Source: Deltaproteobacteria bacterium
GTDB lineage: Bacteria; Myxococcota_A; UBA9160; SMWR01
Direction of reading: 5' to 3'
Length of the DNA: 35,406 nucleotides
Assembly (NCBI GenBank): GCA_024638705.1
Contig: JAHEJV010000002.1
Coordinates: forward strand, 17,290 to 52,695
Shown here one piece after another: positions 6,563-31,543 of this stretch. The position numbers were made by a program, and so were the translations under genes. Below the pieces are notes generated by a model, which searched no databases, had not been told where the DNA came from, and saw only the letters and a list, made by a program, of their open reading frames with translations. Numbering within the stretch: the first letter of the stretch is position 1; every line of letters begins with the position of its first letter.

Positions 6563-6591
6563 TCGGCCGACGCCGCGTCAGCCGCGCTGAC
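6562..6591. terminator. Possible bidirectional terminator between convergent genes
   Basis: The palindrome GTCGGCCGAC (6562-6571) is followed by GTCAGC-CGC-GCTGAC (6577-6591), which straddles the atpC stop codon. Neither has a T tract, so this is only a plausible transcription barrier between the convergent genes. Confidence 0.3.
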
Positions 6592-6987
6592 TCACCTCGA
6601 GTCGGTTCTTCGCCCGCTCGACGGCGCCCTCGAACTCCTCGACCCGGAGCGCCTCGGCGCCGGACGCGTCGAGCGACTTGAGCGCCTGCGTCGCGCGCTC
6701 GAGCGCCGCCTGCGCGCGCGCCGTGTCGATGCCGCTCGACAGCTCGCACGACTCGACCAGGACGGCGACCTGGTCGGCCGACACGTCGGCGAAGCCGTCG
6801 GCGATCGCGGCGTACACCGTCTGTCCGGCGGTCTGGATCTGCACTTCGCCGATCCGCAGCGGGCAGAGGAAGCGCTCGTGATCGGGCAGGACGCCGAAGT
6901 CGCCCTCGGAGCCCGGGAGCACGATGCCCTCGACTTCGCCCTCGAAGGCGGCGCCGGAGGGAGTGACGATGGAAAGCGCGATCGCCA

Positions 6988-6988
<1 letters not shown>
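6578..6988 (-). CDS. atpC: ATP synthase F1 epsilon subunit
   Basis: A 136-residue subunit of the rotary ATP synthase central stalk. It couples gamma rotation to the c-ring and can inhibit ATP hydrolysis through its C-terminal helices. The N-terminal beta-sandwich carries the usual signatures (ALSIVTPSG, IVLPGSEGDFGVLPDHE), and residues about 90-135 are the helical hairpin (RAQAALERATQALKSL). The ATG at 6988 overlaps the atpD stop by one base (TAATG). It is the last gene of the seven-gene F1/peripheral-stalk operon. Confidence 0.95.
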
Positions 6989-8508
<1,520 letters not shown>

Positions 8509-9369
8509 TTAGAGGGCTTCGGCGCCAGAGACGATTTCCACGAGTTCCTTCGTGATCGCGGCCTGGCGGGCGCGGTTGTACTGGAGCGTGAGCGATTCGA
8601 TCAGCTCTTCGGTGTTGCGGGTGGCGGATTCCATCGCGGCCATGCGCGCGGCGTGCTCGCCGGCCTGGTTCTCGAGGAGCGCGCGGAAGATCTCCACCTC
8701 GACCGCCTTCGGCACGAGCACCGAGAGCAGCTTCGCGGGATCGGGCTCGATCTCGTAGGGCAGCGCTTCGGCGTCGGTGTCGTCGCCGCCTTCGGCGGTG
8801 AACGGGAGCAACCGCACCTCGCGCGGCGTCTGGGTCATCGCCGAGACGAACTCGCTGTATACGAGCACGACCTCGTCGACTTCGCCCTCCGCATAACGCT
8901 TCGACACGTATGCGGCGGCATCGGCGGCCTGGGCATAGGTGACCCAGCCGTCCTGGGGGTAGTGTTCGCCGAGATCCTTCCCGAAGCGCCGACCGAGCAG
9001 GTCGCGCGCTTTCGAGCCTGCGGTGCTGATCGTGCGTCCGAGATTCTTGCGCTTCGCGATCGCCGCGTCCGCCACCTTGATGATGTTCGCGTTGAACGCG
9101 CCGCACAGGCCGCGGTCGGAGGTGACGACGAGGAACTCGACGTTCTCCGTCCGCTCGTGCGACACGAGCAGCGGGTGCTCGCTGTCGGACTGGGCCTTCG
9201 CCACTTCGGCGAGCGTCGCGCGCATGCGCTCCGCGTAGGGCCGCGCCGACTCGATCGCCTCCTGCGCGCGACGCAGCTTCGCTCCCGCCACCATGCGCAT
9301 GGCGCGGGTGATCTGCTGCGTCTTCTCGACGCTGGTGATGCGCCGCTTGATGTCCTTGAGATTCGGCAC
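8509..9369 (-). CDS. atpG: ATP synthase F1 gamma subunit
   Basis: A 286-residue central rotor shaft. The N-terminus LKDIKRRITSVEKTQQITRA and the C-terminus RNTEELIESLTLQYNRARQA are the two conserved coiled-coil ends of gamma, and SDRGLCGAFN near residue 88 is diagnostic. The GTG start at 9369 lies three bases after the atpA stop. Length matches E. coli (287). Confidence 0.97.
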   Translation of the reverse strand: MPNLKDIKRRITSVEKTQQITRAMRMVAGAKLRRAQEAIESARPYAERMRATLAEVAKAQSDSEHPLLVSHERTENVEFLVVTSDRGLCGAFNANIIKVADAAIAKRKNLGRTISTAGSKARDLLGRRFGKDLGEHYPQDGWVTYAQAADAAAYVSKRYAEGEVDEVVLVYSEFVSAMTQTPREVRLLPFTAEGGDDTDAEALPYEIEPDPAKLLSVLVPKAVEVEIFRALLENQAGEHAARMAAMESATRNTEELIESLTLQYNRARQAAITKELVEIVSGAEAL

Positions 9370-9372
9370 GGA

Positions 9373-10919
<1,547 letters not shown>

Positions 10920-10920
<1 letters not shown>

Positions 10921-11465
10921 CAGTGACCTCTCGAAAGGTTGTCACGCAGCTGCTGCAGCTGGGTGCGGAGACTTCCGTCGAATACGACGTTGTCGACGAC
11001 GGCGACGGCGCCGCCGATCAGATCGGGATCGACGGTGATGTCGAGCTCGACGTTGCGGCCGGTGCGCGCGGTGAGTGCGCGCTGCAGGCGATCGCGCTGG
11101 GCGTCGTCGAGCGGCGCGGCCGCCGTGACGTGCGCCTTCGTGAGACCCGCCGCTTCGTCAGCGAGCCGCGCGAACTCCTGCTGGATGCCGTCGAAATCGA
11201 TCAGCCGACGCTGGTCGACCAGGAAGGCGAGGAAGTTGCGCACGGTGTCGGAGACGCCCATGTGTTCGCAGATCGCCTCGAGCGCCGAACGGCGCTGGGC
11301 GACGGGATGGAGCGGGCGGAAGAGGGCGCTGCGAACGGCGGGGTCGGACTCGAAGAGTGCGCCGACCCGGTCGATCTCGTCGCGAAAAGTCGCGACGGAG
11401 TTCGTCTCCTCGGCCAGCGAGAAGAGGGCGCGCGCATAACGTCGGGCGGCTGCCGATGCCTTCAT
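10920..11465 (-). CDS. atpH: ATP synthase delta subunit (OSCP)
   Basis: A 181-residue peripheral-stalk subunit joining the top of F1 to the b/b' dimer. The N-terminal six-helix domain ([15 protein letters not shown]) and the C-terminal part ([20 protein letters not shown]) carry the usual OSCP/delta motifs. It starts at ATG 11465, three bases after atpF, and its TGA overlaps the atpA start by one base. Confidence 0.96.
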
Positions 11466-11468
11466 CGT

Positions 11469-12017
11469 CTAGTTCCCCGCACTCGGTGCGCTCTCGATGC
11501 GTCCGATGAACTCGTCGAGGAGGCGGTCGCGATCCTGACCCGTCACCTGCTCTCGCAGGATGCCGGCCGCGAGCTCGACCGCGAGCTTCGACGCCTCGTC
11601 GTGGAGTGTCGCGCGGGCGCGGCGCACTTCCTGGTCGACGGCCGCGGCGGCGTCCTGGCGGATGCGATCGGCGGCGCGGCGGGCGTCGGCGAGCAGGTTC
11701 TCGCGCTCGGTTTCGGCGCGTTCACGCGCGGTGGTGCGGATGCCCTCGAGATCCTCCTGGAGCGAGTCGAGCTTGCGCTGCCATCGGGCGAACTGGGCTT
11801 CGGCGTCGCTCTTGAGCTTCGCGGCTTCCTCGAGATCGTTGCGGATCGCCGCGCGGCGCGTCTCGAAGTAGGTGCCGACCGGCTTGCGGAGCAGGATGAA
11901 GAGCGTGACGAAGAGCAGCACGAAGTTGATCGTGGGAAAGAGCAGACCGTCACCGGCGGCGTGAGCGGGCGCTGCGCCGAGCAGGACGAGCAGCGCCGCC
12001 TGGAAGAGCGTTCGCAT
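11469..12017 (-). CDS. atpF: ATP synthase Fo subunit b
   Basis: A 182-residue peripheral-stalk subunit. An N-terminal signal-like hydrophobic segment (LFQAALLVLLGAAPAHAA) precedes a membrane helix (FVLLFVTLFILL) and a long charged coiled coil (about residues 45-160). The possible cleavable signal before the usual membrane helix is unusual for b in model bacteria. The ATG overlaps the end of the upstream b' gene, and atpH follows after three bases. With b' it would form an asymmetric stator dimer. Confidence 0.9.
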   Translation of the reverse strand: MRTLFQAALLVLLGAAPAHAAGDGLLFPTINFVLLFVTLFILLRKPVGTYFETRRAAIRNDLEEAAKLKSDAEAQFARWQRKLDSLQEDLEGIRTTARERAETERENLLADARRAADRIRQDAAAAVDQEVRRARATLHDEASKLAVELAAGILREQVTGQDRDRLLDEFIGRIESAPSAGN

Positions 12018-12580
12018 CAGACCGTCCTCCCGAGCACCTGCGCTGCGGCTTCGCGCGCGAGGTCCTGTGACTGCGAGCGCAGCGTGTCGCGCGCGCCGTC
12101 GAGGGATGCGGCGACGTCGCGGCGGGCCTGCTCGATGCGGGTCTCCGCCTCGCTGCGGGCCGCGGCGGTCTCGCGCTGCGCCTCGGCGCGCACCTCTTCG
12201 AGCAGGCTGCGGCGCGCGCGCTCGGACTCTTCCTTCGTCTCCTCCACCTGGCTCTCGTAGCGCGCGAGCAGCTCGGCGGCGTTGCCCTCGAGCTTCGCGG
12301 CCTTCGCGCGGGTGCCGGTGATGCGTTCGTCGCGCTCGTCGAGCACGCGCAGCAGCGGTCTGAAGACGAGCGCGTTGACCGGGAAGATCAACACGACGAA
12401 GAAGGCGATCAGCGTCAGCAGCAGCGTCGGTTCGGGGACCAACACGAGACCGCCTTCGGCAGCGGACGCAGCGAACGGCGTGGCGAACGCCGCGGCGCCC
12501 ATCGAGAGGGCGCGTGCGCGGAGAGAAATCGGCGCAAGCACCGGGCGGAGGTCGCGTCTCGAGGGCTGCACTCGGCTCAT
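12017..12580 (-). CDS. atpF': ATP synthase Fo subunit b'
   Basis: A second b-type stator subunit, 187 residues from the ATG at 12580. The leader has an N-terminal basic region and a hydrophobic stretch ending in FAASAAEGG, followed by the membrane helix LLLTLIAFFVVLIFPVNALV and a long coiled coil (RVLDERDERITGTRAKAAKL onwards). The frame stays open to 12631; other possible starts are 12631 and the ATG at 12502, and none has a strong ribosome-binding site, so the start is uncertain. First gene of the F1/stator operon. Confidence 0.88.
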   Translation of the reverse strand: MSRVQPSRRDLRPVLAPISLRARALSMGAAAFATPFAASAAEGGLVLVPEPTLLLTLIAFFVVLIFPVNALVFRPLLRVLDERDERITGTRAKAAKLEGNAAELLARYESQVEETKEESERARRSLLEEVRAEAQRETAAARSEAETRIEQARRDVAASLDGARDTLRSQSQDLAREAAAQVLGRTV

Positions 12581-12892
12581 GGGCGGGGAGATCCCGAGGC
12601 GATCCCGAACGAGTTCGCGGTGGCGCCGCAATCGACGCGAACCGCGAGGACGCTCGCGGAGGGATCTCGTTTCCTCGTCGTGGGTTACCGGAAGCGGGAC
12701 GCCGGGTGTCGCGGGGATGTCCGCGGAGACGTCGGCGTGGCCTGCTGCCGGGTGGGTGGTGGTTCGAGCCCTGCCATCGGAGGGCCAGACAAGTCGGGCT
12801 GGAGAGAGGCCCAGGAAACCGGTGACGAGCGGAATGGGACTACGTCGCGCGGGGGCCGGGGCGCGCCAATTCTTACATAGCTGCGGCGAAGT
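12581..12892 (-). other. Leader region of the atp operon
   Basis: About 310 bases lie between the bactofilin stop and the b' start, with no convincing gene on either strand. A possible minus-strand promoter is TTGAAC (12896-12891) with TAAGAA (12875-12870), spacer only 15 bases, in the AT-richest part of the gap. If used, the operon would have a leader of nearly 300 bases. Confidence 0.3.
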
Positions 12893-13321
12893 TCAAGACG
12901 CCGGAGGGCCCGGATCGCCACTCTCGGTGGGGTTCGCGGCGTGGGAATCCGGAGGCTCCCCGGTCGGCGCGGGGGGCGGCGTGCCGCAACGGACGCGACC
13001 GTCGATACGCGCTCCCTCGGCCATCCGCAGCTTCGCCGCCACGACGTCGCCCAGGACCCGCGATTCGCGTCCCAGGACGATCGCGCCGCGCGCGACGACG
13101 TCACCCTTCACCTTCCCGTCGATCGAGATCTCGGAGGCATCGAGATCGGCCTCGACGATGCCCTTCGCGCCGATCTCCACCGCGTCGTCGGCGCAGACCT
13201 CGCCGCGGAGGTGGCCGTCGATGCGCGCGGAGCGCGTCAGGACGAGGAGACCCTGGAAGCGGGTGCCCTCCGCCAGCGCGACGTCGGGCCGGACGCGCGA
13301 TGCGGCGTCGCGGTCACTCAC
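12893..13321 (-). CDS. Bactofilin
   Basis: A 142-residue polymer-forming cytoskeletal protein (DUF583 family). The central right-handed beta-helix is visible as repeated hydrophobic/Gly patterns: ARIDGHLRGEV, AVEIGAKGIVEADLDASEI, ISIDGKVKGDVVARGAI, VLGRESRVLGDVVAAKLRM and ARIDGRVRC. It is flanked by a charged N-terminal tail and a disordered Pro-rich C-terminus. The GTG start at 13321 overlaps the parB stop by eight bases, so it is translationally coupled to ParB. In Myxococcus xanthus, bactofilins BacNOP are encoded near parAB and position the ParABS machinery; the same job is inferred here. No PadC-like protein is adjacent. Confidence 0.9.
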   Translation of the reverse strand: MSDRDAASRVRPDVALAEGTRFQGLLVLTRSARIDGHLRGEVCADDAVEIGAKGIVEADLDASEISIDGKVKGDVVARGAIVLGRESRVLGDVVAAKLRMAEGARIDGRVRCGTPPPAPTGEPPDSHAANPTESGDPGPPAS

Positions 13322-14213
13322 GGCCGAGCAGCGAATCGGCGAGCCGATCGAACTCCTCGGAGCTGAAATACTCGATTTCGATCCGGCCGCGGTCGGGCGA
13401 GCCCTTCACCCGCACCCGGGTCTGGAACTGCTGACGCAGGGAGTCGGCCACGCTCTGCAGATGCGGGTCCTGGGCGGTGCGCGCCTTCGCGGAGCCGGCG
13501 CCGGTCGGCGCGGGCGGGCGGGCGAGCTCTTCGGCGGCGCGAACGGAGAGGTGCTCGGTGACGATGCGGTCGCGCAGCTTCTGGCGGCGGTCGGCGCTCG
13601 AGAGGGACAGCAAAGCCTTCGCGTGGCCGAGCGAGAGACGGCCCTCCTCGACGTCGGTCTGGATCGAGCGGCTGAGCTCGAGCAGGCGGAGGTGGTTGGC
13701 GATCGTCGAGCGGTCCATACCGACGCGCTCACCGATCTCCTCCTGGGTCGCGCCCGTGTCGGCCAGGGTGCGGAAGGCGACCGCGAGCTCGATCGGGTTG
13801 AGATCGTGGCGCTGGATGTTCTCGACGAGCGCCACTTCGAGACGGTCGCGCGGGTCGATCTCGAGCACGACGGCCGGGATCGTCTGCAGCCCGGCGCGCG
13901 ACGAGGCGCGCCAGCGTCGCTCGCCGACGACCAGCTCGTAGCGTTCGCCGGCGCGCCGCACGACGACGGGCTGCAGCACGCCGTGCACGCGGATCGAATC
14001 GGTGAGCGCATCGAGCTGCGCGGGTTCGAAGACGCGGCGCGGCTGATCCGGGTTGGGATCGATCTCCGAGACGGGGATCTCGTTCACGCCGGACGCCGGC
14101 GCCTTCGCGGATTGCGGCGTCTCGTCCGACGGTGCGGCGGCGCGCGGCGGCGGGTTGTTCGGGATCAGTGCGCCGATGCCACGACCGAGCGCGGGGCGCG
14201 TGTTAGTTGCCAA
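13314..14213 (-). CDS. parB: Chromosome partitioning protein ParB (CTPase clamp)
   Basis: A 299-residue ParB/Spo0J protein that loads at parS and slides on DNA using CTP. The N-terminus GRGIGALIPN is the ParA-contacting motif. The CTP-binding boxes are GERRWRASSRAG and ENIQRHDLNPIE; a helix-turn-helix follows (TQEEIGERVGMDRSTIANHL), and a C-terminal dimer domain ends the protein. I prefer the TTG at 14213, which has GGAG six bases upstream and puts the ParA-interaction motif at the extreme N-terminus; the ATG at 14261 has no ribosome-binding site. It overlaps the parA stop by 11 bases. Three parS sites lie about 2 kb away. Confidence 0.95.
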   Translation of the reverse strand: MATNTRPALGRGIGALIPNNPPPRAAAPSDETPQSAKAPASGVNEIPVSEIDPNPDQPRRVFEPAQLDALTDSIRVHGVLQPVVVRRAGERYELVVGERRWRASSRAGLQTIPAVVLEIDPRDRLEVALVENIQRHDLNPIELAVAFRTLADTGATQEEIGERVGMDRSTIANHLRLLELSRSIQTDVEEGRLSLGHAKALLSLSSADRRQKLRDRIVTEHLSVRAAEELARPPAPTGAGSAKARTAQDPHLQSVADSLRQQFQTRVRVKGSPDRGRIEIEYFSSEEFDRLADSLLGRE

Positions 14214-15105
14214 AGGGATCTCCTTCGTCGGAGGACGGGTGATGGGTTTCGCGCGCGTCATCGGCTTCGACGGGGGTGGCCGCAGCGGCGACTTCGCACG
14301 GGAAGGCGGGCGCCGGCGGCGACACGGGCGAATCCGCAGCCGGCAGGCGGTTCAGGATCTCGGTGGCGAGCTCGAGGTAGGCGGTCGCGCCCGCCGAACG
14401 CGCGTCGTAGAGCAGGATCGGTTTGCCGTGGCTCGGCGCTTCGGAGAGGCGCACGTTGCGCGGAATGACGGTCTGATAGGCCTGGGGTCCGAAGTGGCGA
14501 CGCACTTCCTCTTCGACCTGACGCGAGAGGTTGTTGCGCGCGTCCGCCATCGTGAGCAGCACGCCTTCGAGTGCCAGGCCCGGGTTCAACTCGCGACGCA
14601 CCAGCTCGACGGTCTCGAGGAGACCGGCGAGTCCTTCGAGGGCGTAGTACTCGCACTGGAGTGGGATGATGATGCCGTCGGCCGCCGTGAGTGCGTTGAG
14701 CGTCAGCAGGCCCAACGACGGCGGGCAGTCGATCAGCACGATCTCGTAGTCGTCGCGGATCTCCGAGAGCGCGCGCTCGAGGCGTCGTTCGCGGTTGATC
14801 GCGGAGACGAGCTCGATCTCGGCGCCGTAGAGATCGCGGCCCGACGGGACGAGGTGCAGGTGGGGCAGCTCGGTCCCGCGCGTCATCTCTTTGATGGCGC
14901 GCTCCCCGATCAGGGCGTCGTACACGTGCGGGCGCGACCCGGACAAGCCGTAGGCGCTCGTGGCGTTGGCCTGGGGATCGAAGTCGACGAGGAGGGTCGA
15001 CCGCTCGGACGCAGCGAGGCTGGCGGCGAGGTTCACCGCCGTCGTGGTCTTGCCCACGCCGCCCTTCTGGTTCACGACCGCGAAAACGCGGCCCGGATGC
15101 GTCAT
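14203..15105 (-). CDS. parA: Chromosome partitioning ATPase ParA (Soj)
   Basis: A 300-residue deviant-Walker ATPase that binds DNA as an ATP dimer and is pulled along by ParB. KGGVGKTTT is at residues 14-22, LLVDFDPQANAT near 38-49, and LIDCPPSLGLLT near 121. The C-terminal about 40 residues are Ala/Pro-rich and beyond the usual Soj length (about 255). This tail overlaps the parB start. A 167-bp gap separates parA from rsmG and may hold its own promoter. Confidence 0.96.
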   Translation of the reverse strand: MTHPGRVFAVVNQKGGVGKTTTAVNLAASLAASERSTLLVDFDPQANATSAYGLSGSRPHVYDALIGERAIKEMTRGTELPHLHLVPSGRDLYGAEIELVSAINRERRLERALSEIRDDYEIVLIDCPPSLGLLTLNALTAADGIIIPLQCEYYALEGLAGLLETVELVRRELNPGLALEGVLLTMADARNNLSRQVEEEVRRHFGPQAYQTVIPRNVRLSEAPSHGKPILLYDARSAGATAYLELATEILNRLPAADSPVSPPAPAFPCEVAAAATPVEADDARETHHPSSDEGDPFGN

Positions 15106-15272
15106 CCGCTCTCACCCCTGCGGGGAAGGGTCGCGGCGGCCCTTCCCGATCCCTTCGCTGTCCTGTTCCCCAGGGGAACAGGGTCATCTTCTCCTAGATA
15201 CCACACGCGCGGTTCGGATTCCATCGAATCGCGTCGCGCTAGAAAATCGAAGTCAAATCAGAAGGTTGCGAA

Positions 15273-15908
15273 TCAGTTTCGTCGCAGGGGCCGGGCCCGG
15301 GCGAGCCAGACGGCGCGATCGGGGCCGGACGGCGCTGCGTAGGCGCGGAGTTCGCCCTCGCTCAGCTCCGGGTGGGACAGCCCTGGAAAATCGGGGTTCG
15401 TGGCCAGGGCGATCCAGCCGGTTGGCGCCATCCAGGGCAGCATCCAGGCCACCGCCTGCTCGGGTTTTGCGAACGCCTGGGAGATGACGCCGTCGCTGGA
15501 GCGCGGCTCGAGCTCCTCGGCGCGGCCGCGGAGCGCCTCGGCGTTCTCCAGGCCGAGCTCCCGGATCGCGGCACGCTGGAAGTGATGTCGGCGCTCGCGG
15601 GAGTCGATCAGCCAGACCTGGGTCTGGGGGCGCAGCAGCGCGATCGGCAGGCCTGGGATGCCCGCGCCGGAGCCGAGGTCGGCGATGTGCGCGGCGGGTG
15701 GGAGAGCGCGCTCCAGGGCGGCTGCCTCGAGCAAGAGGCGTTCTGCAATCGATTCGGCGTCGGGATGACCCGTCAGATTGAGCCGCTTGCTCCAGCGGTC
15801 GATGAACCGGGCTAGACGCACCCAGGAATCGACGGAGACCGATTCGGCGCCCAGCCGCGCCAGGCCCTGCTCGATCACGCTCTCGAGGCGCTTGGAATCC
15901 GCATGCAA
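15273..15908 (-). CDS. rsmG: 16S rRNA (guanine-527-N7)-methyltransferase RsmG (GidB)
   Basis: A 211-residue class I methyltransferase acting on G527 of 16S rRNA. The SAM-binding motif is ADLGSGAGIPGLPIALL, followed by LIDSRERRHHF and the N-terminal RWSKRLNLTG, all diagnostic of RsmG. The frame stays open to a GTG at 15965, but that longer start lies inside parS site 1. The TTG at 15908 has GGGGGAG eight bases upstream and gives the usual length (E. coli 207). The classic partner gidA/mnmG is not here. Confidence 0.92.
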   Translation of the reverse strand: MHADSKRLESVIEQGLARLGAESVSVDSWVRLARFIDRWSKRLNLTGHPDAESIAERLLLEAAALERALPPAAHIADLGSGAGIPGLPIALLRPQTQVWLIDSRERRHHFQRAAIRELGLENAEALRGRAEELEPRSSDGVISQAFAKPEQAVAWMLPWMAPTGWIALATNPDFPGLSHPELSEGELRAYAAPSGPDRAVWLARARPLRRN

Positions 15909-15957
15909 CGGTGGATCTCCCCCGAATCCGTCGGAACCGGGGCCTCCCGGATTCCGG

Positions 15958-15973
15958 TGTTCCACGTGGAACA
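15958..15973. other. parS site 1
   Basis: A perfect 16-base palindrome, TGTTCCACGTGGAACA, matching the universal ParB-binding parS consensus. It lies just upstream of rsmG. Confidence 0.95.
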
Positions 15974-15983
15974 GGTGACCGAG

Positions 15984-15999
15984 TGTTCCACGTGGAACA
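15984..15999. other. parS site 2
   Basis: An identical 16-base parS palindrome, starting 26 bases after the start of site 1. Confidence 0.95.
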
Positions 16000-16070
16000 G
16001 GGCAGGGACCAGCCCACCGCGCCAGCTCAGGGCGATTGCCTCCCTGGCGCCCTCACGGATCCAGCCGACG

Positions 16071-16086
16071 TGTTCCACGTGGAACA
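16071..16086. other. parS site 3
   Basis: A third identical parS palindrome, starting 87 bases after site 2. All three lie in the 262-bp gap between rsmG and jag, and I found no perfect copy elsewhere in the window. Confidence 0.95.
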
Positions 16087-19133: not shown

Positions 19134-19492
19134 CAGTGCGTACCTCGCCCGCCGGCCAGCTCGCTCAGTTCTGCGAAGGACCTCGCCGTGTCGAGCCCCG
19201 CGGCCCCAGGCCGCGCGATCACCACGATATCCCGACCGACCACCTGCTGGCGACCAACCTGTCGGTACCACTCGCGAATCCGCCGCTTCACTCGGTTGCG
19301 GACGACCGCGTTCCCGACCCGACGACTGACCGTCACGCCGAGGCGGGCGTAGATGCCCTCGGAGCCGACTTCGGCGCTCAACACGACGAAGTTCCGTCCG
19401 GCACGGCGCTCGCCACGCCGCGAGAGCTCCTGAAACTCTCTCGAGCGCCGGATCCGCTCCGAACGCGGAAACGGACCTGTCGCGGGGATCAC
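19133..19492 (-). CDS. rnpA: Ribonuclease P protein component
   Basis: A 119-residue basic protein cofactor of RNase P. The signature [18 protein letters not shown] (residues 60-77) is the RNR box; [16 protein letters not shown] is the usual N-terminus. The GTG at 19492 overlaps the rpmH stop (GTGA), giving the normal length. The same frame stays open for 82 more codons, back through the whole of rpmH to a TTG at 19738. That recalls Thermus, where rpmH is nested inside a long rnpA, but the extra residues here look like composition-driven open frame. Confidence 0.93.
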
Positions 19493-19644
19493 CCTCGTTT
19501 CGACGGAGTCGACGGGGCGAGCCGCTTCCGCCCCTTTGCGCGACGACGCTTCAGGATCGCCTGGCCCCCGCGCGTCTTCATCCGTGCTCGAAACCCGTGG
19601 ACCCGTCGCCGCCGGACCCGGCTGGGCTGATACGTGCGCTTCAT
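19489..19644 (-). CDS. rpmH: 50S ribosomal protein L34
   Basis: A 51-residue L34 read in a different frame from rnpA: it begins [20 protein letters not shown] and continues with [20 protein letters not shown], which is unmistakable. The ATG is at 19644, and the TGA (19491-19489) overlaps the rnpA GTG. Codons 46-51 (STPSKRG tail) extend slightly beyond the usual 44-46 residues. It is the first gene of the rpmH-rnpA-yidD-yidC-jag block. Confidence 0.97.
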
Positions 19645-20118
19645 GGGAAGGAAACCTTGGAGGGAGGGGGAGGACTGCGGCGAAGCCGTCTGCTCCGCCG
19701 GAGGAATTCAGGAACGGCGCAAGTTGCCGCGGCTGCAAAGGGGTGTCAAGCGCTAGACCGCGTCTTCTCTACGGAATCAGGCGCGAGGAGCCTCGGCGGA
19801 GCGCCCTGCGAACGTCGGTTCGCCGCTTCAAGGGCCCACATCGCGTGGTAGCATGCCGAGCAACGGACACCGACGGGTCGGTGCACCGGCATCGGGGGGT
19901 GCTGCGAGCTCATCGAGAGGGTTTTCCGGCGTACGGAACCCCTTCGCCAGTTCGCCGACTTGGACACTTTTTGTCTGCCGACGCGGCCTTCTTCTTACTA
20001 ACACTGTCTTGAGACAATCAAAGAACCAGAGAGAAGACTCCCGCACACGGACGCTTCGAAACCCTCGAACCTCAACAGCCCGAACCCACCAGAACGAACC
20101 CAGAACGGAAGCCACGTC
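19645..20118. other. rpmH-dnaN divergent intergenic region, candidate replication origin
   Basis: A 474-bp gap with no credible gene. All genes to its left, back to 6.6 kb, run leftward, and all to its right, up to 30.7 kb, run rightward. It holds inverted repeats CACCGAC-GG-GTCGGTG (19868-19883) and TTCCG-n5-CGGAA (19924-19938), a relatively AT-rich stretch at about 19960-20030, a TAGCAT -10-like box at 19849-19854 and another -10-like TACTAA at 19996-20001, and four CGAACC-type repeats in the dnaN leader (20057-20102). I found no TTATCCACA box on either strand. Confidence 0.5.
19721..19749 (-). promoter_or_regulatory. Candidate rpmH promoter
   Basis: On the minus strand, a consensus -35 TTGACA (19749-19744) is followed after 17 bases by CAACTT (19726-19721). 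The -35 is perfect; the -10 is poor. Transcription would start about 70 bases before the L34 start codon. Confidence 0.42.
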
Positions 20119-21240
20119 ATGAAGTTCTCCATCGACAAGAGCGAGTTCCAACGCGGCCTCGGACGTATCCAGTCGATCGTCGAGAAACGCAACACCATGC
20201 CGATCCTCGCCAACGCCCTGCTCGAGGTGACCGGCAAGGGGAAGAACGGTTCCCTCGAGCTCGCGGCCACCGACCTCGAAGTGGGGATCCGGAGCTCGCA
20301 TCCGTGCGAGGTGGCAAAGACCGGGAGCCTCACCGTTTCTGCCCGCAAGCTCCACGAGATCGTGCGCGAACTCCCCGAGGAGAGGGTCCACCTCGAAGCG
20401 TCGCCGAACGCCTATCTGACGCTGCGCTGCGCACGCGCCGAATTCACGCTCGCTGGCACCACGGCGGACGAATACCCGAGCCTCTCGAATGTGACGATCG
20501 AGAAGCTGACGACGATTCCGGCGGCGATCCTCGCCGACATGATCGAACGCACGATGTACGCCGCCTCTTCCGATGAGACGCGTTACAACCTGAACGGCGT
20601 CTTCGTGGAGCGCATCGCCGACACCGGAAAGCTTCGCATGGTCGCCACCGACGGACACCGTCTGGCCTACGTCGACCGCGAGCTGGGCGACTTCGAGTCG
20701 CTGGGCGACGGTGTGATCATCCCGCGCAAGGGTCTCGCCGAGTTGAAGCGGCTCGTCGACGAGGAGGACTCGGACGAAGTCGAGCTCGGTTTCGAGGGGA
20801 ACAACGGTCTCGCGCGCAAGGGGGGCGTCACGCTCACCATGCGCCTGATCGAAGGCGAGTTCCCGAACTATCGCCAGGTGATTCCCGAAGAGCGAGGACA
20901 ACAGCTCGTGCTTCCGACCGATACCCTGGTCCACGCGCTGCGCCGCGTCGCACTCCTCTCCGCCGAACGCAGCCGCGCGGTGAAGCTCGAGCTGAGCGCG
21001 GGCCAGCTGAGCCTCTCTTCGGACAACCCCGATCTCGGCGCTGCGCGCGAAGAGACCGACGTGGATTACGACGGAGAGACGACGAGCATCGCCTTCAACG
21101 CTCGCTACCTGATCGACGCGGTGTCGGCGACCGGCAGCAAGGAAGTGCGATTCGGCTTTCGCGACGGCCTCTCCCCGGCCGAATTGTCCCCGGCCGACGA
21201 CAGCGATTCGCTCGCGATCGTCATGCCGATGCGCCTCTGA
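20119..21240 (+). CDS. dnaN: DNA polymerase III beta sliding clamp
   Basis: A 373-residue clamp with the three-fold repeated domain structure of DnaN. It starts MKFSIDKSEFQRGLGRIQSI and includes NTMPILANALLE, SSDETRYNLNGVF, ATDGHRLAYVDRE and the C-terminal IVMPMRL. The ATG at 20119 is preceded by GGAAG eight bases upstream. Its usual upstream partner dnaA and downstream partner recF are both missing here. Gene direction and neighbours place it next to the putative origin. The 211 bp after it, up to gyrB, hold no gene. Confidence 0.97.
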   Translation: MKFSIDKSEFQRGLGRIQSIVEKRNTMPILANALLEVTGKGKNGSLELAATDLEVGIRSSHPCEVAKTGSLTVSARKLHEIVRELPEERVHLEASPNAYLTLRCARAEFTLAGTTADEYPSLSNVTIEKLTTIPAAILADMIERTMYAASSDETRYNLNGVFVERIADTGKLRMVATDGHRLAYVDRELGDFESLGDGVIIPRKGLAELKRLVDEEDSDEVELGFEGNNGLARKGGVTLTMRLIEGEFPNYRQVIPEERGQQLVLPTDTLVHALRRVALLSAERSRAVKLELSAGQLSLSSDNPDLGAAREETDVDYDGETTSIAFNARYLIDAVSATGSKEVRFGFRDGLSPAELSPADDSDSLAIVMPMRL

Positions 21241-21433
21241 ACGAGGCCGTTTCGAGCCGGTATCGGGAAGGTGGGGGCCGCCCGCGCGCGCGGTCTTCAA
21301 AACACCTTTCCAATCGAATAGTTGGAGGCTTTACGCGGGGTTAGGCTTCCTGTACCTTCCGCGCCAGCCGACGGTCCTTCTCGGCAGCTGCCCTGCTCGA
21401 CGCCCCCGCCAACGAGCAGCCGCCAGCCGCTAG

Positions 21434-23893
<2,460 letters not shown>

Positions 23894-23905: not shown

Positions 23906-26458
<2,553 letters not shown>

Positions 26459-27807: not shown

Positions 27808-28086
27808 ATGAGCCAGACCGATCACGGCGATCGACCGGACGGCCCCACGCCCGACTCCCCGGAGAAGACCGAGGAGAAACGGCGGCAGGGCCTCGCCTAT
27901 CAGGGTGCAGCCGAAGCCGTGGCTGCGATCCCGATCGCAACCGGGATCGGGTACTGGCTGGACGGTCGGTTCGACACCTCTCCCTACTTGCTGATCGGCG
28001 GCGCCGTGCTCGGCTTCGCCGCCTTCGTCACGCGACTCCTCCGCCTCGGCCGACAGCTCGAGGCGTTCGATGACCCGGGCGAATGA
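27808..28086 (+). CDS. atpZ: AtpZ/AtpI-family small membrane protein
   Basis: A 92-residue protein with a charged N-terminal tail and two membrane helices (AAEAVAAIPIATGIGYWL and YLLIGGAVLGFAAFVTRLL) with the GYWLDGRFDTSP hairpin between them. This is the ATPase_gene1/AtpZ family, thought to help c-ring assembly and Mg2+ or Ca2+ handling near ATP synthase. It starts at ATG 27808 and overlaps the next gene by 17 bases. Confidence 0.85.
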   Translation: MSQTDHGDRPDGPTPDSPEKTEEKRRQGLAYQGAAEAVAAIPIATGIGYWLDGRFDTSPYLLIGGAVLGFAAFVTRLLRLGRQLEAFDDPGE

Positions 28087-28615
28087 TCCTCCCTTCACAC
28101 CCCCAGGCCCCCACCCCGCGCCCGCGCACGAGACCCGCCCCTTGTCGACCGACGCCGTCATCATCCAGCCCGTCGAACGCATCAACCTGACCCTCTCGGT
28201 CGGGGCGGTCGCGGCGTCGTGGTGGTTCGTGTCGCCGCTGTTCGCCGCGAGTCTCGGCTTCGGCGCGTTCCTCGAAGCGATCAACTTCCGCGGTCTGTCC
28301 CAGCAGTCGCAGCTGCTCTTCTTCGGACAGATCAAGACCGGCGGCGGCTGGACGGGCCTCTACGGTCTGCGCTTCGGGCTGCTCGTGATCGGCATCGGCG
28401 GCGGGCTCGCGCTGGGCGCCGACCCGATCGGCCTCCTCTTGGGCCTGTCGCTGATCATCCCGACGACGCTCTACGTGGCGTGGCGCCATCGCCCGCCGAT
28501 CGACCCGAACGCCCCCGCGCTCGATGCGGAAGACCCGGAATGGGACCGCTGGAACGCATGGCTCGCGCGTGAGACCGACGAAGACGCGGACGCCACTCTC
28601 GAGGACGAAGCATGA
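28070..28615 (+). CDS. atpI: ATP synthase subunit I (AtpI-like)
   Basis: A 181-residue membrane protein with four predicted helices (ERINLTLSVGAVAASWWF, FAASLGFGAFLEAINF, GLRFGLLVIGIGGGLAL and GLLLGLSLIIPTTLYVAW). The position just before atpB and the four-helix layout fit AtpI, the c-ring assembly factor. The Pro-rich N-terminus and the acidic C-terminal 50 residues are extra. It overlaps atpZ at its start and the atpB ATG at its end (ATGA). Confidence 0.78.
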   Translation: MTRANDPPFTPPGPHPAPAHETRPLSTDAVIIQPVERINLTLSVGAVAASWWFVSPLFAASLGFGAFLEAINFRGLSQQSQLLFFGQIKTGGGWTGLYGLRFGLLVIGIGGGLALGADPIGLLLGLSLIIPTTLYVAWRHRPPIDPNAPALDAEDPEWDRWNAWLARETDEDADATLEDEA

Positions 28616-29328
28616 TCTTCAAATGGTTCGAAGGCATCTCATCGGTGTCGTGGGTGATCCAGGCGGCGCTGATCGCCGCGCTGCTCCTGCTCGCGAGCGG
28701 ACTGCTCGTGCGTCGCAGCCTCGCGACCACCGACGGCGGCGTGCTCCCCGACGAGGGCTTCAGCGTCCGCAACCTGCTCGAGGTGCTCGTCGAATGGCTC
28801 GCCGGCATGGCGCAGGACCGCATGGGGTCCGAGTGGCGGAAGTACTTCCCGCTCGTCGGCACGATGTTCTTCTTCATCCTGATCTCGAACCTGATGGGCC
28901 TGATCCCGGGCCTCGACGGCTCGACGAGCGACGCCAACACCACCTGGGCGTGGGCGATCATGGCGTGGGTCTTCTACACGGGGATCGGGATCGCGAAGCA
29001 CAAGCAGAAGTATCTGGTGAAGTTCATGGGTCCCTCCTTCTTCGAGAAGGAGATGTTCGGACGCACGGTGCACTTCCGTCTGCTGATCCCCATCTTCATG
29101 CCGCTCGAGCTGGTGCTCGACGCGGCGCGCATGCTCACCCTGGCCGTTCGTCTGCTTGCGAACATGTTCGCGGACCACACGGTGATCGCGGTGTGGCTGT
29201 CGCTGGTGCCCGTCGTGGTGCCGGCGGTGTTCATGGGCCTCGGCCTCGTGATCTCGTTCCTCCAGGCCTTCGTGTTCGCGCTTCTGACGATGATCTACAT
29301 CGGCCTGGCGCTCGAGGAGCCGCACTAG
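28612..29328 (+). CDS. atpB: ATP synthase Fo subunit a
   Basis: A 238-residue proton (or sodium) half-channel subunit. The essential arginine is R180 in LAVRLLANMFADH, and the preceding LIPIFMPLELVLDAARMLTL and NLMGLIPG are characteristic. Five to six membrane helices are visible. The ATG overlaps the atpI stop, and atpE follows after 89 bases. It is separated from the F1 genes by about 16 kb. Confidence 0.97.
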   Translation: MIFKWFEGISSVSWVIQAALIAALLLLASGLLVRRSLATTDGGVLPDEGFSVRNLLEVLVEWLAGMAQDRMGSEWRKYFPLVGTMFFFILISNLMGLIPGLDGSTSDANTTWAWAIMAWVFYTGIGIAKHKQKYLVKFMGPSFFEKEMFGRTVHFRLLIPIFMPLELVLDAARMLTLAVRLLANMFADHTVIAVWLSLVPVVVPAVFMGLGLVISFLQAFVFALLTMIYIGLALEEPH

Positions 29329-29417
29329 GCGCGGCGTCGTCTTCCCTTTTCCACCAACCCGTTTTCCCCATACCGACTCGGAACCCGAGTTCGAATCAGA
29401 ACGAAAGAGGAGTGCAA

Positions 29418-29729
29418 ATGCGTAAGTTCGGAAAGACCCTACTTTGGACCATCGTCTTCATCGTGGCCCCGCTCGCGGCGATGGCCGCGGACGGCAGCAG
29501 CGACTCGGGCTGGGGCTACGCCCTCGGCGCCGGCCTGGCCGTCGGTCTCGCCGGTCTCGGCTGCGGCATCGGCCAGGGCCTCACGGCCGGCAACACCACC
29601 GCCGGCATCGCGCGCAACCCGGGCGCCGCCGGCGCGATGTTCACGAACTTCATCCTCGGGATGGTTCTCATCGAGTCGATCGCCATTTACGGCCTCGTCA
29701 TCGCGTTCCTGCTCCAGGGCAAGATCTAG
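29418..29729 (+). CDS. atpE: ATP synthase Fo subunit c
   Basis: A 103-residue rotor-ring proteolipid. An N-terminal signal-like segment (LLWTIVFIVAPLAAMAA) precedes the two-helix hairpin. The ion-binding carboxylate is E86 in LIESIAIYGLVIAF, and the first helix contains CGIGQGLTAGN with Q53; the loop ARNPGA is standard. Aligned with the Na+-binding ring of Ilyobacter tartaricus, Q53, E86, S87 and Y91 are kept, while the threonine after the serine is isoleucine. The ATG at 29418 has a strong AAAGAGGAG ribosome-binding site, fitting high expression. A strong hairpin terminator follows 23 bases after the stop. Confidence 0.97.
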   Translation: MRKFGKTLLWTIVFIVAPLAAMAADGSSDSGWGYALGAGLAVGLAGLGCGIGQGLTAGNTTAGIARNPGAAGAMFTNFILGMVLIESIAIYGLVIAFLLQGKI

Positions 29730-29752
29730 CGATCACCCCGGATTCGAATTCC

Positions 29753-29789
29753 CCGACAGGCCGGAGCGTTGCTCGCTCCGGCCTGTCGG
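29753..29789 (+). terminator. Strong hairpin after atpE
   Basis: A perfect 16-bp stem (CCGACAGGCCGGAGCG with its complement) closes a five-base loop, TTGCT. It ends the atpZIBE operon. There is no run of T after it, so termination may be Rho-assisted, or the stem may mainly protect the mRNA 3' end. Confidence 0.85.
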
Positions 29790-30087
29790 AAGAATTCAGA
29801 GAGACGCCGGGCGGGAGCCAGCCACGGGCCTCACCCCGTATGAAAACCCCGTGGCATACCCATGCCCCCACCCGGCATCCTGAAACCCGCCCGACCCCCG
29901 GTCCCGTTAGAGGGGTGCTGGCGGGCATGCCCGAAGGCATGGCTTTCCGTAGAGCAAGCGGCGTGCCACGCTCCGCGACGTCTCGCGTTCCGAACGGACG
30001 CGAGTGTTTCCGGGGGTTTGCATGAACCGCGCTGCGAAAGACGGCGGAGGCGTTCGCCGTGCGTGAACCGTGCGTCACGAGGTGTGC
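29790..30087 (+). other. Structured non-coding stretch between atpE and tmk
   Basis: About 300 bases without a credible gene but with several hairpins: GCCACGGG with CCCGTGGC (29821-29855), GGCAT-ACCC-ATGCC (29852-29865) and CATGCC-CGAA-GGCATG (around 29926-29941). The word GCRTGAACCGYG occurs three times before and at the tmk start (30020-30031, 30061-30072, 30086-30097). I do not recognise a known riboswitch, tRNA, SRP RNA or tmRNA. It may be a tmk leader or a small RNA. Confidence 0.4.
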
Positions 30088-30690
30088 GTGAACCGCGGGA
30101 AGCTGATCGCGCTCGAGGGCATCGACGGCTGCGGGAAGAGCACGCAGGCCGTGCTTCTCGCCGACGCGCTGCGCGCCGACGGCCACGACGTCCTGCTGAC
30201 GCGCGAACCCACCGACGGCCCCACCGGACGCCGCATCCGCGCGATGGCGCGCTCGGGGAAACGCGTGCCCGCGTTCGAGGAGCTCGGCTGGTTCTTCGAG
30301 GATCGCCGCGAGCACGTGGTGGAAGTGATCGCACCCGCGCTCGCCGCCGGACGCACCGTCCTCACCGACCGCTACTTCCTCTCGACCGTCGCCTATCAGG
30401 GCGCGCGCGGACTCGACTGGCGCGAGATCCTCGCGCGCAGCGAAGGCGAGTTCCCGCTGCCCGACGCCGCCCTGCTCTTCGTCCTGCCCGCAGCCGACGG
30501 GCTCGCGCGCGTGGAGACCCGCGGCGGTCCGGCGGAGCCCGCCTTCGAGCAGGCCGACTTCCTCGAGAAGGTCGCGTCGATCTTCGCCGCGCTCGACCTG
30601 CCCTACCTCGTCCGCATCGACGCGGCGGGCGACGTGGACGAGGTGGCGGAGCGCACGCGCAGCGCCCTCGCGGAGAAGCTCAGGGCTTAG
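30088..30690 (+). CDS. tmk: Thymidylate kinase
   Basis: A 200-residue kinase converting dTMP to dTDP. The P-loop EGIDGCGKST is at residues 10-19, the DRY-type motif appears in TDRYFLSTVAYQG, and TREPTDGPTGRRIR is the usual dTMP-site segment. I favour the GTG at 30088 (GAGG five bases upstream) over the GTG at 30070, since the family begins a few residues before the P-loop. Its 3' end overlaps the convergent esterase gene by 11 bases. Confidence 0.9.
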   Translation: MNRGKLIALEGIDGCGKSTQAVLLADALRADGHDVLLTREPTDGPTGRRIRAMARSGKRVPAFEELGWFFEDRREHVVEVIAPALAAGRTVLTDRYFLSTVAYQGARGLDWREILARSEGEFPLPDAALLFVLPAADGLARVETRGGPAEPAFEQADFLEKVASIFAALDLPYLVRIDAAGDVDEVAERTRSALAEKLRA

Positions 30691-31543
30691 GTGCGGGGGG
30701 CGGCACCAGCGGCGCCGTCCGTCGTTGCGCGCGCAGGAACTCGACGATCCGCTCGCTCGTGCCGAGGGGCCAGCCATGGCCGAACAGGTGGAGGCAGAAG
30801 CGGGTGGGCGCGGCGCAGGCGACGGCCTCCGAGCAGCCGCGGTCGAGGTCGTCTGGCGGAGCCTCGCAGGAATTGTTCTGGGCCCAGCGCGCGAAGCTCG
30901 TGAGGCCCGCTGCGAGCGGAACGACCTTGTCGTCGCGGCCGTGTTGGATCATCACCGGCACGGCTCCGGTGCACGCCTGGTCGAGCGGCGGACCGGCGCT
31001 CGCGATGGCGGCGACGCCCGCGACCTTGTCCGCGCGCAGACAACCGAGCAGATGCGCGAAGGACCCGCCGTTCGAGTAGCCGGCGAGGGTGACGCGCTCC
31101 GGGTCGATACAGAAGCGCTCCTCGATGTCCTCGAGCAATGCGTCGAAGAAGGTGACGTCGCGGTCGCCGTACTCGCCCTGCACGAACTGCCAGCCCGGGC
31201 GTCGGCGCGGGCCCGCCTCCGGGAGCATGCGCGGCAACCCCTCCGGCGCGATCAGGATCGCTTCGGGCCAGTAGCGCTCGGGGTCGAGGCGGACCTCGAG
31301 GGACGCCTCGCGACCGCCCCAGGCGTGGAACACGACGAGCACCGGCGCGCCGGGTTGCGCCTTCGGACCGACGCGGGCGTAATAGCGGCGGACCTCACCG
31401 AGCATCACCTCGATCTGCTGCGTGGAGCGTCCCGGTTCGAGATGGCAGTCGCGCGCCGGCTCCTCGCCGTACGCACTCACCGCACCGACGGCGATCCACA
31501 ACCCGAACGAGATTCCGGCCAGACGTCGCATGGCGCGAACCAT
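30680..31543 (-). CDS. Secreted alpha/beta-hydrolase, PHB depolymerase/LpqC-like esterase
   Basis: A 287-residue exported hydrolase. Residues 1-26 form a signal peptide (RRLAGISFGLWIAVGAVSAY). VLVVFHAWGG is the oxyanion-side strand. The nucleophile is S157 in GYSNGG, with the acid at D204/D205 (QHGRDDKVVP) and the base at H256 (LFGHGWP). Several cysteines in the lid region (about 226-250) suggest disulphides outside the cytoplasm. It resembles the family of polyhydroxybutyrate depolymerases, feruloyl esterases and LpqC; the substrate is unknown. I chose the ATG at 31543; an in-frame ATG at 31531 is possible, and the longer frame to 31669 is a shadow. It is divergent from the methyltransferase. 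Confidence 0.75.
   Translation of the reverse strand: MVRAMRRLAGISFGLWIAVGAVSAYGEEPARDCHLEPGRSTQQIEVMLGEVRRYYARVGPKAQPGAPVLVVFHAWGGREASLEVRLDPERYWPEAILIAPEGLPRMLPEAGPRRRPGWQFVQGEYGDRDVTFFDALLEDIEERFCIDPERVTLAGYSNGGSFAHLLGCLRADKVAGVAAIASAGPPLDQACTGAVPVMIQHGRDDKVVPLAAGLTSFARWAQNNSCEAPPDDLDRGCSEAVACAAPTRFCLHLFGHGWPLGTSERIVEFLRAQRRTAPLVPPPAPKP

Follow-up and report, generated by a model that had tools for sequence, protein, structure and literature searches.

Gene content and polarity of the locus

The window, meaning the whole stretch of 35,406 nucleotides that was analyzed, is part of contig C484 (52,695 bases), and its source genome is in 505 contigs and 90% complete. Near its middle, rpmH and dnaN are separated by a gap whose length of 474 bp had been given exactly in the first-pass annotation (rpmH starts at 19644 and dnaN at 20119). 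The named genes to the left of the gap are all on the minus strand (atpC, atpD, atpG, atpA, atpH, two atpF-type genes, a bactofilin gene, parB, parA, rsmG, jag with an R3H domain, yidC, yidD, rnpA, and rpmH) and those to the right are all on the plus strand (dnaN, gyrB, gyrA, hemL, atpB, atpE, and tmk), in agreement with the sharp polarity switch described earlier. That description extended to every gene between 6.6 and 19.6 kb on the left and between 20.1 and 30.7 kb on the right. Since some of the open reading frames scanned from 6.6 to 31 kb had no family match (8435-9577, 15256-16017, 28070-28612, 29444-30022, and 29862-31076), it was confirmed for the nameable genes only. The stretches of 8435-9577 and 15256-16017 gave named genes in other reading frames or with other starts. 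The three parS sites reported near the gap were also found, as exact 16-mers 3.6-3.7 kb away. The main features are listed in Table 1.

The proposed origin divides the ATP synthase genes, with the F1 and b-type subunits running leftward (6578-12631) and atpB/atpE (a, c) running rightward (28612-29726). The spacing of 211 bp between dnaN and gyrB (21241-21451) is too small for recF, which occupies that place in Bdellovibrio.

Table 1. Features of the rpmH-dnaN region, in positions of the window
Feature	Position	Strand	Basis
Intergenic gap, proposed oriC	19645..20118		Conserved divergent rpmH/dnaN arrangement and GC-skew minima of relatives
Proposed recoded DnaA box TTTTTGTCTG	19968..19977 (scored 9-mer 19969-19977)	+	EM motif TTTTGTCgg
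GC-rich spacer from box to trio tract, 10 bp	19978..19987		Read from the sequence
DnaA-trio-like tract CTTCTTCTTACTAACACTG	19988..20006	+	Best 15-mer 19992-20006, 9/15 matches to CTA repeats
AT-richest stretch of the gap, proposed unwinding region	19985..20034		40-bp windows
AGACAA, inverted partner of box core TTGTCT (19971-19976)	20012..20017	-	Inverted repeat, window only
GTGGTAGCAT, including conserved word GTGGTA; probable -10 region of dnaN	19845..19854	+	Promoter role inferred
Probable rpmH promoter, TTGACA (19744-19749) and CAACTT (19721-19726), 17 bp apart	19721..19749	-	Read directly
rpmH (ribosomal protein L34, 51 aa)	19489..19644	-	Named by resemblance of translation
dnaN (DNA polymerase III beta clamp)	20119..21240	+	TIGR00663, 317.1 bits vs cut-off 137.65
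parB	13314..14261	-	TIGR00180, 160.7 bits vs cut-off 58.45
parA	14203..15105	-	ParA-family matches, under their curated cut-offs
gyrB, next named gene after dnaN	21452..23893	+	1133.2 bits
gyrA	23906..26458	+	1216.7 bits
Three exact parS 16-mers	15958-15973, 15984-15999, 16071-16086		Chance expectation none

The GC content of the gap is 62%, compared to about 66% in the flanks. Its AT-richer stretch, already remarked on in the first-pass annotation, was seen again as a peak of 0.60-0.62 AT in 40-bp windows, and the inverted repeats mentioned there exist but are short (15 pairs, none long and perfect). The gap also lacks TTATCCACA, as had been stated, even when one mismatch is allowed; two sites with 1 mismatch occur elsewhere in the window, which is not above chance. 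A single box in the gap scores above 6. The core of this box and AGACAA form an inverted pair on either side of the trio tract, and AGACAA could possibly serve as a weak opposite box. Two short words are shared with other gaps: GTGGTA is present in 18/29 compared to 0.8 expected, and TGTCAA, which is TTGACA of the probable rpmH promoter on the other strand, is present in 12/29 compared to 1.5 expected. A sigma-70 consensus scan of 19500-20200 did not find a promoter.

Conservation of the arrangement and GC skew

The closest named DnaN relatives of the window, from the best 80 of 556, are "Deltaproteobacteria"- or "Myxococcota"-type MAGs that include isolate UBA9160, and the order is called UBA9160-type here. 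A divergent rpmH/dnaN gap was seen in 28 of the 30 best-scoring dnaN loci (the window's own included), and the other two end at contig ends. Likewise, rpmH is adjacent to dnaN in 32 of the 33 named loci of the order found among the best 80 of 556, a set that overlaps with the 30 loci, and the exception ends at a contig end. The gap therefore sits in the conserved rpmH-(dnaA)-dnaN-gyrB neighborhood, as expected of a bacterial DnaA-dependent oriC. In this order, dnaA does not occupy the position between rpmH and dnaN where it usually lies.

The cumulative GC-skew check proposed by the first-pass annotation gave a minimum near the gap in four of eight same-order sequence sets, and the other four were uninformative. 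In the four informative relatives, the minimum was 0.4-5.2 kb from the gap. For G048 it was at 182,596, inside dnaN (181,891-183,012) and 0.4 kb from the gap, and all 18 10-kb bins before dnaN were negative in GC skew while the four after it were positive. The minimum of G020 was at 29,221, just ahead of the gap (0.9 kb) and dnaN at 30,530. For G052, where the 200-340 kb part was examined in full, it was at 282,670, 2.5 kb from the gap, with dnaN at 284,037-285,158; 20-kb samples across this 508-kb contig were negative in skew before and positive after. The minimum of G025, in a stretch that partly reads N, was at 237,486, 5.2 kb from the gap, with dnaN at 241,518. The contigs of G048, G020, and G052 carry both genes, and no skew flip was seen at dnaA, which is 57, 59, and 87 kb away. 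Skew was uninformative for the window's own contig, its genus-mate G001, G055, and the single-contig genome G017 (42 sampled stretches). In the window, no flip of the origin type is seen (left +0.004, right -0.036), and its skew seems to follow the coding strand.

The 474-bp gap is very probably the chromosomal origin of this uncultured bacterium. The earlier suggestion of an origin that uses divergent DnaA boxes was supported by these skew minima and by the divergent box and DnaA-trios conserved in the gap, which are described below.

A proposed recoded DnaA box

We compared 47 nonredundant gaps of the order with 47 outgroup dnaA-dnaN gaps taken from the best 80 of 556 named loci. Loci L127-L159 were assigned to the order by a DnaN identity of 57% or more. 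In all 47 outgroup loci, from the same best 80 of 556, dnaA is upstream of dnaN; in one of them, L205, it is 3.3 kb away and, thus, the "gap" of this locus is long in the box counts.

The cluster of canonical TTATCCACA-like boxes that usually marks oriC was absent from the gaps of the order, and TTTTGTCSG was found instead. No exact TTATCCACA occurred in the 47 gaps of the order, and allowing up to one mismatch gave two sites in 2/47 gaps compared to 3.4 expected. The outgroup gaps, drawn from the best 80 of 556 loci, contained 123 sites in 42/47 gaps at this threshold compared to 4.9 expected. An EM motif search of the last 260 bp of the gaps, with 60 random starts, ranked TTTTGTCgg first, and the other distinct motif among its top eight was AGAAGaaGtaGg, the complement of a CTA/CTT run. 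With up to one mismatch, TTTTGTCSG gave 57 sites in 36/47 gaps of the order, compared to 6.2 in base shuffles and 10.3 in dinucleotide shuffles; it was exact in only 7/47, and 11/47 had no site within one mismatch. The corresponding outgroup count, again from the best 80 of 556 loci, was 11 sites in 9/47 gaps vs. 5.4 expected.

A MAFFT alignment placed the window's box in register with those of 19 chosen relatives, and the box of G001, which belongs to the window's genus, was poor (score 9.1). Box-like sites were found in both orientations and at varied distances. The putative box of the order is TTTTGTC(G/C)(G/C), in which the 5' part of the classical box is retained and the CACA end is dropped. 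In these relatives, the DNA word read by DnaA seems to have changed, and DnaA would be expected to bind TTTTGTC boxes.

DnaA-trios and spacing

A box scoring above 9 was present in 41/47 gaps of the order, at a median of 77 bp before dnaN. Among the 64 triplets, the three frames of CTA were the most over-represented downstream of the box (46 of 47 gaps); CTA is the complement of the DnaA-trio 3'-GAT-5'. The trio score was 10.37 of 15 matches compared to 7.45 in shuffles (n = 46 of 47). When the best trio was searched from the box to dnaN, it began 0-16 bp after the box in 39/41 gaps, compared to 48% in shuffles. The middle half of the box-to-trio distances was 10-13 bp, with a median of 11 bp in relatives, and the published spacer of the basal unwinding system (BUS) peaks at 10-13 bp (PMC8287927).

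The published BUS criteria are three or more DnaA-trios (.A. on the 3'-5' strand) and a box with up to two mismatches from the standard motif at 0-16 bp from the trios (PMC8287927). The window has at least three trios, which can be read as CTT-CTT-CTT at 19988-19996 or, in the better-scoring frame, as TTC-TTA-CTA at 19992-20000, and the tract matches 9/15 positions. Its box-to-trio distance of 10-14 bp lies within 0-16 bp, and its box matches the motif of the lineage instead of the standard one.

Specificity of the site in the gap

To score other sites, we retrained the box without the genus in question and scanned both strands with hand-set trio weights. Training and testing used gaps of the same kind, and only those of the same genus were left out. 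Under these conditions, the gap site of the window ranked first of 334 candidates in the 52.7-kb contig (25.6 vs. 15.0 for the next). It was first in 6/8 sets, namely the window, G048, G052, G017 (sampled), G025, and G001, of which the last was a near tie (16.6 vs. 16.6), and it was only eighth in G055 and 22nd in G020. A scan with nothing left out and another score placed it first in 4/7 contig sets and among the top five in 7/7. The first-pass annotation had proposed a relaxed DnaA-box search in the gap and around dnaA. This search was productive in the gap, where the divergent box was found, but not around dnaA, where a strong box was seen in only 1/32 loci.

Location and altered residues of DnaA

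A match to the DnaA family TIGR00362 was found in 55/60 genomes and exceeded the curated cut-off in 29/60. The window's own genome is one of the five misses among the 60 and yielded no full-length dnaA. An N-terminal dnaA fragment (G000:C16:85-345, locus L243) stops at a contig end of that genome and, therefore, absence of DnaA from the organism was rejected. The gene upstream of the fragment resembles a LON-domain protein, as judged from its sequence. In none of the 33 named loci of the order, which cover 5.5-21 kb each and come from the best 80 of 556, was dnaA near dnaN. On the single contig of G017 (3.67 Mb), dnaA is about 1.8 Mb from dnaN, nearly opposite, and the skew is flat.

DnaA of the order was examined in 32 proteins, from L001-L030 (the best-scoring loci), L062, and L113; L066 was dropped as a second copy of L004. 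The base-contacting residues, given in PMC7561715 as R399, P423, D433, H434, T435, and H439, were mapped onto these proteins by spacing. One residue is deleted just before the recognition helix in 32/32 proteins of the order and in 0/47 of the outgroup (from the best 80 of 556 loci). R399 (31/32) and H434 (32/32) are kept in the order, and the others are changed in part or mostly: P423 is present in 1/32, D433 in 18/32, T435 in 4/32 (S in 4, P in 24), and H439 in 2/32 (N in 30). The outgroup proteins, from the best 80 of 556 loci, have R399 in 43/47, H434 in 47/47, P423 in 38/47, D433 in 47/47, T in 8 and S in 39 at position 435, and H439 in 36/47. We infer that the change in the helix and the change in the box belong together.

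The ATPase motifs differ as well. Walker B has E in place of D in 31/32 proteins of the order, and 24/32 have a residue other than R at the presumed arginine finger, the position that aligns with the arginine of RSRF, suggesting that the ATP control of DnaA may be altered. A model of DnaA from G005 (mean pLDDT 82.8, pTM 0.50) had as its best PDB match 8btg, which is titled as the BUS cryo-EM structure. The modeled protein is predicted to retain the DnaA fold, and DnaA of the order has the AAA+ domain III and DnaA-type HTH domain IV of the family.

Genomes with two dnaA genes

Two dnaA genes were searched for among 112 genomes, and sister orders contributed two genomes only. In G131 and G142, from another order of the same class, one dnaA occupies the rpmH-dnaN interval and another lies elsewhere, and the same holds for G060 of the same phylum. 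Two more of the 112 genomes gave two matches: in G063 the pieces adjoin and look like one gene, and in G109 the second match is weak. The skew minimum of G142, at 273,034, lies at dnaN (273,942-275,042), with only 6 kb of sequence to the right.

A quick tree of 66 DnaA proteins was built with 21 of the 47 outgroup rows and SH-aLRT support only; the phylum rows L267 and L269 were left out due to bad reading frames. In this tree, DnaA of the order is joined first by the second copies of G131 and G142 (SH-aLRT 100) and next by that of G060 (99), suggesting takeover by a paralog. The copy of G060 beside dnaN sits with canonical DnaA, and the copies beside dnaN in G131 and G142 form a long branch (2.36) of unsure placement. 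The one-residue deletion is already present in the second copies of G131, G142, and G060, and it is absent from the six readable DnaA proteins of the phylum outside the group.

The dnaA copies beside dnaN in G131 (locus L287) and G142 (L289) are strongly altered, for example with ALLLDDVEDL at Walker B and FSRHHTTAL before the helix, and they may be decaying. The dnaA-dnaN gaps of these two loci have trio-like runs, CTCCTACTCCTACTC and CTGCTTCTACTCCTG. Neither gap has a canonical box within one mismatch or a TTTTGTC-type site that scores above 9. Ahead of the trio-like runs are T-rich words, for example TTTTCCA, which are perhaps another type of box.

The simplest reading would be a duplication, after which the order lost its original dnaA and the second copy took over. 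Lateral gain of the second copy is possible. We consider it somewhat probable that the initiator was replaced as follows: from an ancestor within this class that had two dnaA genes, the original was lost in this order between rpmH and dnaN, and the altered second DnaA became the sole initiator. The origin would have stayed in place, with its boxes changing from TTATCCACA to TTTTGTCGG, and the relatives that carry both genes, of which two have a rapidly evolving copy next to dnaN, would represent living intermediates.

Proposed origin and alternative explanations

The sequence-level case for an origin in the gap is strong. It comprises the conserved locus, the skew minima in some relatives, the box, the trios, their spacing, the lack of canonical boxes, dnaA encoded elsewhere, and the changed recognition helix; binding, opening, and firing are predictions. 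We consider it highly likely that the gap is an oriC of the BUS type with a recoded box, opened by a DnaA that is encoded elsewhere. Close upstream of dnaN, the BUS-type parts would be a double-stranded DnaA box, a GC-rich spacer, DnaA-trios, and an AT-rich unwinding stretch. DnaA would bind the recoded box through its modified domain IV and polymerize along the trio strand, and the AT-rich stretch would then open, probably around 19985-20034. Two forks would depart in the directions shown by the gene polarity, and the window's own chromosome would presumably initiate at the gap.

Another explanation is that the conserved element is a regulatory site of dnaN or a leader RNA (such as a repressor site combined with a structured leader) and that the origin is merely close by. 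The box and trios are downstream of the conserved -10-like word and, thus, probably within the dnaN leader. However, the leader of the window is no more stable than shuffles (z 0.47), its sole Rfam match is far under the gathering score, and 20 sequences in a gappy alignment gave no consensus structure, so a riboregulator is unlikely. Also against it are the box-like sites in both orientations and at varied distances, the 3'-GAT-5' triplet run 10-13 bp past the box, which is the published BUS signature (PMC8287927), and the skew minima located at this locus. We regard this explanation as improbable.

The separation of dnaA from dnaN throughout the loci examined, with about 1.8 Mb between them and a flat skew in G017, would fit initiation at dnaA elsewhere, leaving the rpmH-dnaN gap as a relic. 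This is very improbable, since the skew does not flip at dnaA in the three contigs with both genes, a strong box was seen in only 1/32 dnaA flanks, and parS and the polarity switch are located at dnaN. Replication could also be independent of DnaA, as in some cyanobacteria, and the residues at the arginine-finger position (not R in 24/32) and Walker B (changed in 31/32) would agree with this, as would the missing full dnaA in the window's own genome. We give this an equally slight chance, because DnaA occurs in 55/60 genomes, an N-terminal piece of it is encoded at a contig end in the window's genome, a relative's DnaA was modeled with the DnaA fold, and the box and trios are conserved.

Comparison with known origins and significance

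The proposed BUS-type oriC with a recoded box resembles several known systems in part. Thermotoga maritima has a divergent 12-mer as its DnaA box, and its DnaA aligns gap-free to that of the order at the shortened turn. In the oriC of this unrelated lineage, TAG repeats are essential for unwinding (PMC10316083). Like the BUS of Bacillus subtilis and most surveyed bacteria, the proposed origin would have a DnaA box, a spacer of about 10-13 bp, and DnaA-trios (PMC8287927; PDB 8btg), but its box departs from TTATCCACA beyond the published search rule, barring a species-specific box (PMC8287927).

The oriC of Bdellovibrio bacteriovorus, with the layout rnpA-rpmH-dnaA-[oriC]-dnaN-recF-gyrB-gyrA, is in the same gene neighborhood, directly before dnaN, and is compact with a DUE. 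It retains dnaA in place and uses the box NN(A/T)TCCACA (PMC5124646), whereas here dnaA is gone and positions 7-9 of the box are lost. Positions 4 and 6-9 of the DnaA box are reported to be conserved in distant bacteria and positions 1-3 to be relaxed (PMC5124646); the box of the order departs from this pattern in that its first positions are kept and its last are lost. Epsilonproteobacterial origins (H. pylori, TCATTCACN) also have a lineage-wide divergent DnaA box, which was linked by the authors to domain IV. In those, variation falls on the first three positions and the last one around a retained TTCAC core (PMC5043019), whereas the box of the order retains the 5' end and has lost the CAC part. 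In Synechococcus elongatus, the origin is likewise near dnaN with dnaA encoded separately, but the lineage is unrelated and a recoded box is not mentioned in the available part of PMC7198777.

In the open-licence PMC literature, no report was found of the origin of this lineage, of takeover by a dnaA paralog, or of such a box. Origin searches rely on TTATCCACA unless a species-specific box is known (PMC8287927), and an order without the 3' half of the DnaA box would be mispredicted by TTATCCACA-based searches. If the takeover is true, the lineage would offer genomes with one gene, with two, and with the other gene as a natural series in which to study the joint change of an essential initiator and its origin, and it could show which DnaA residues set the box.
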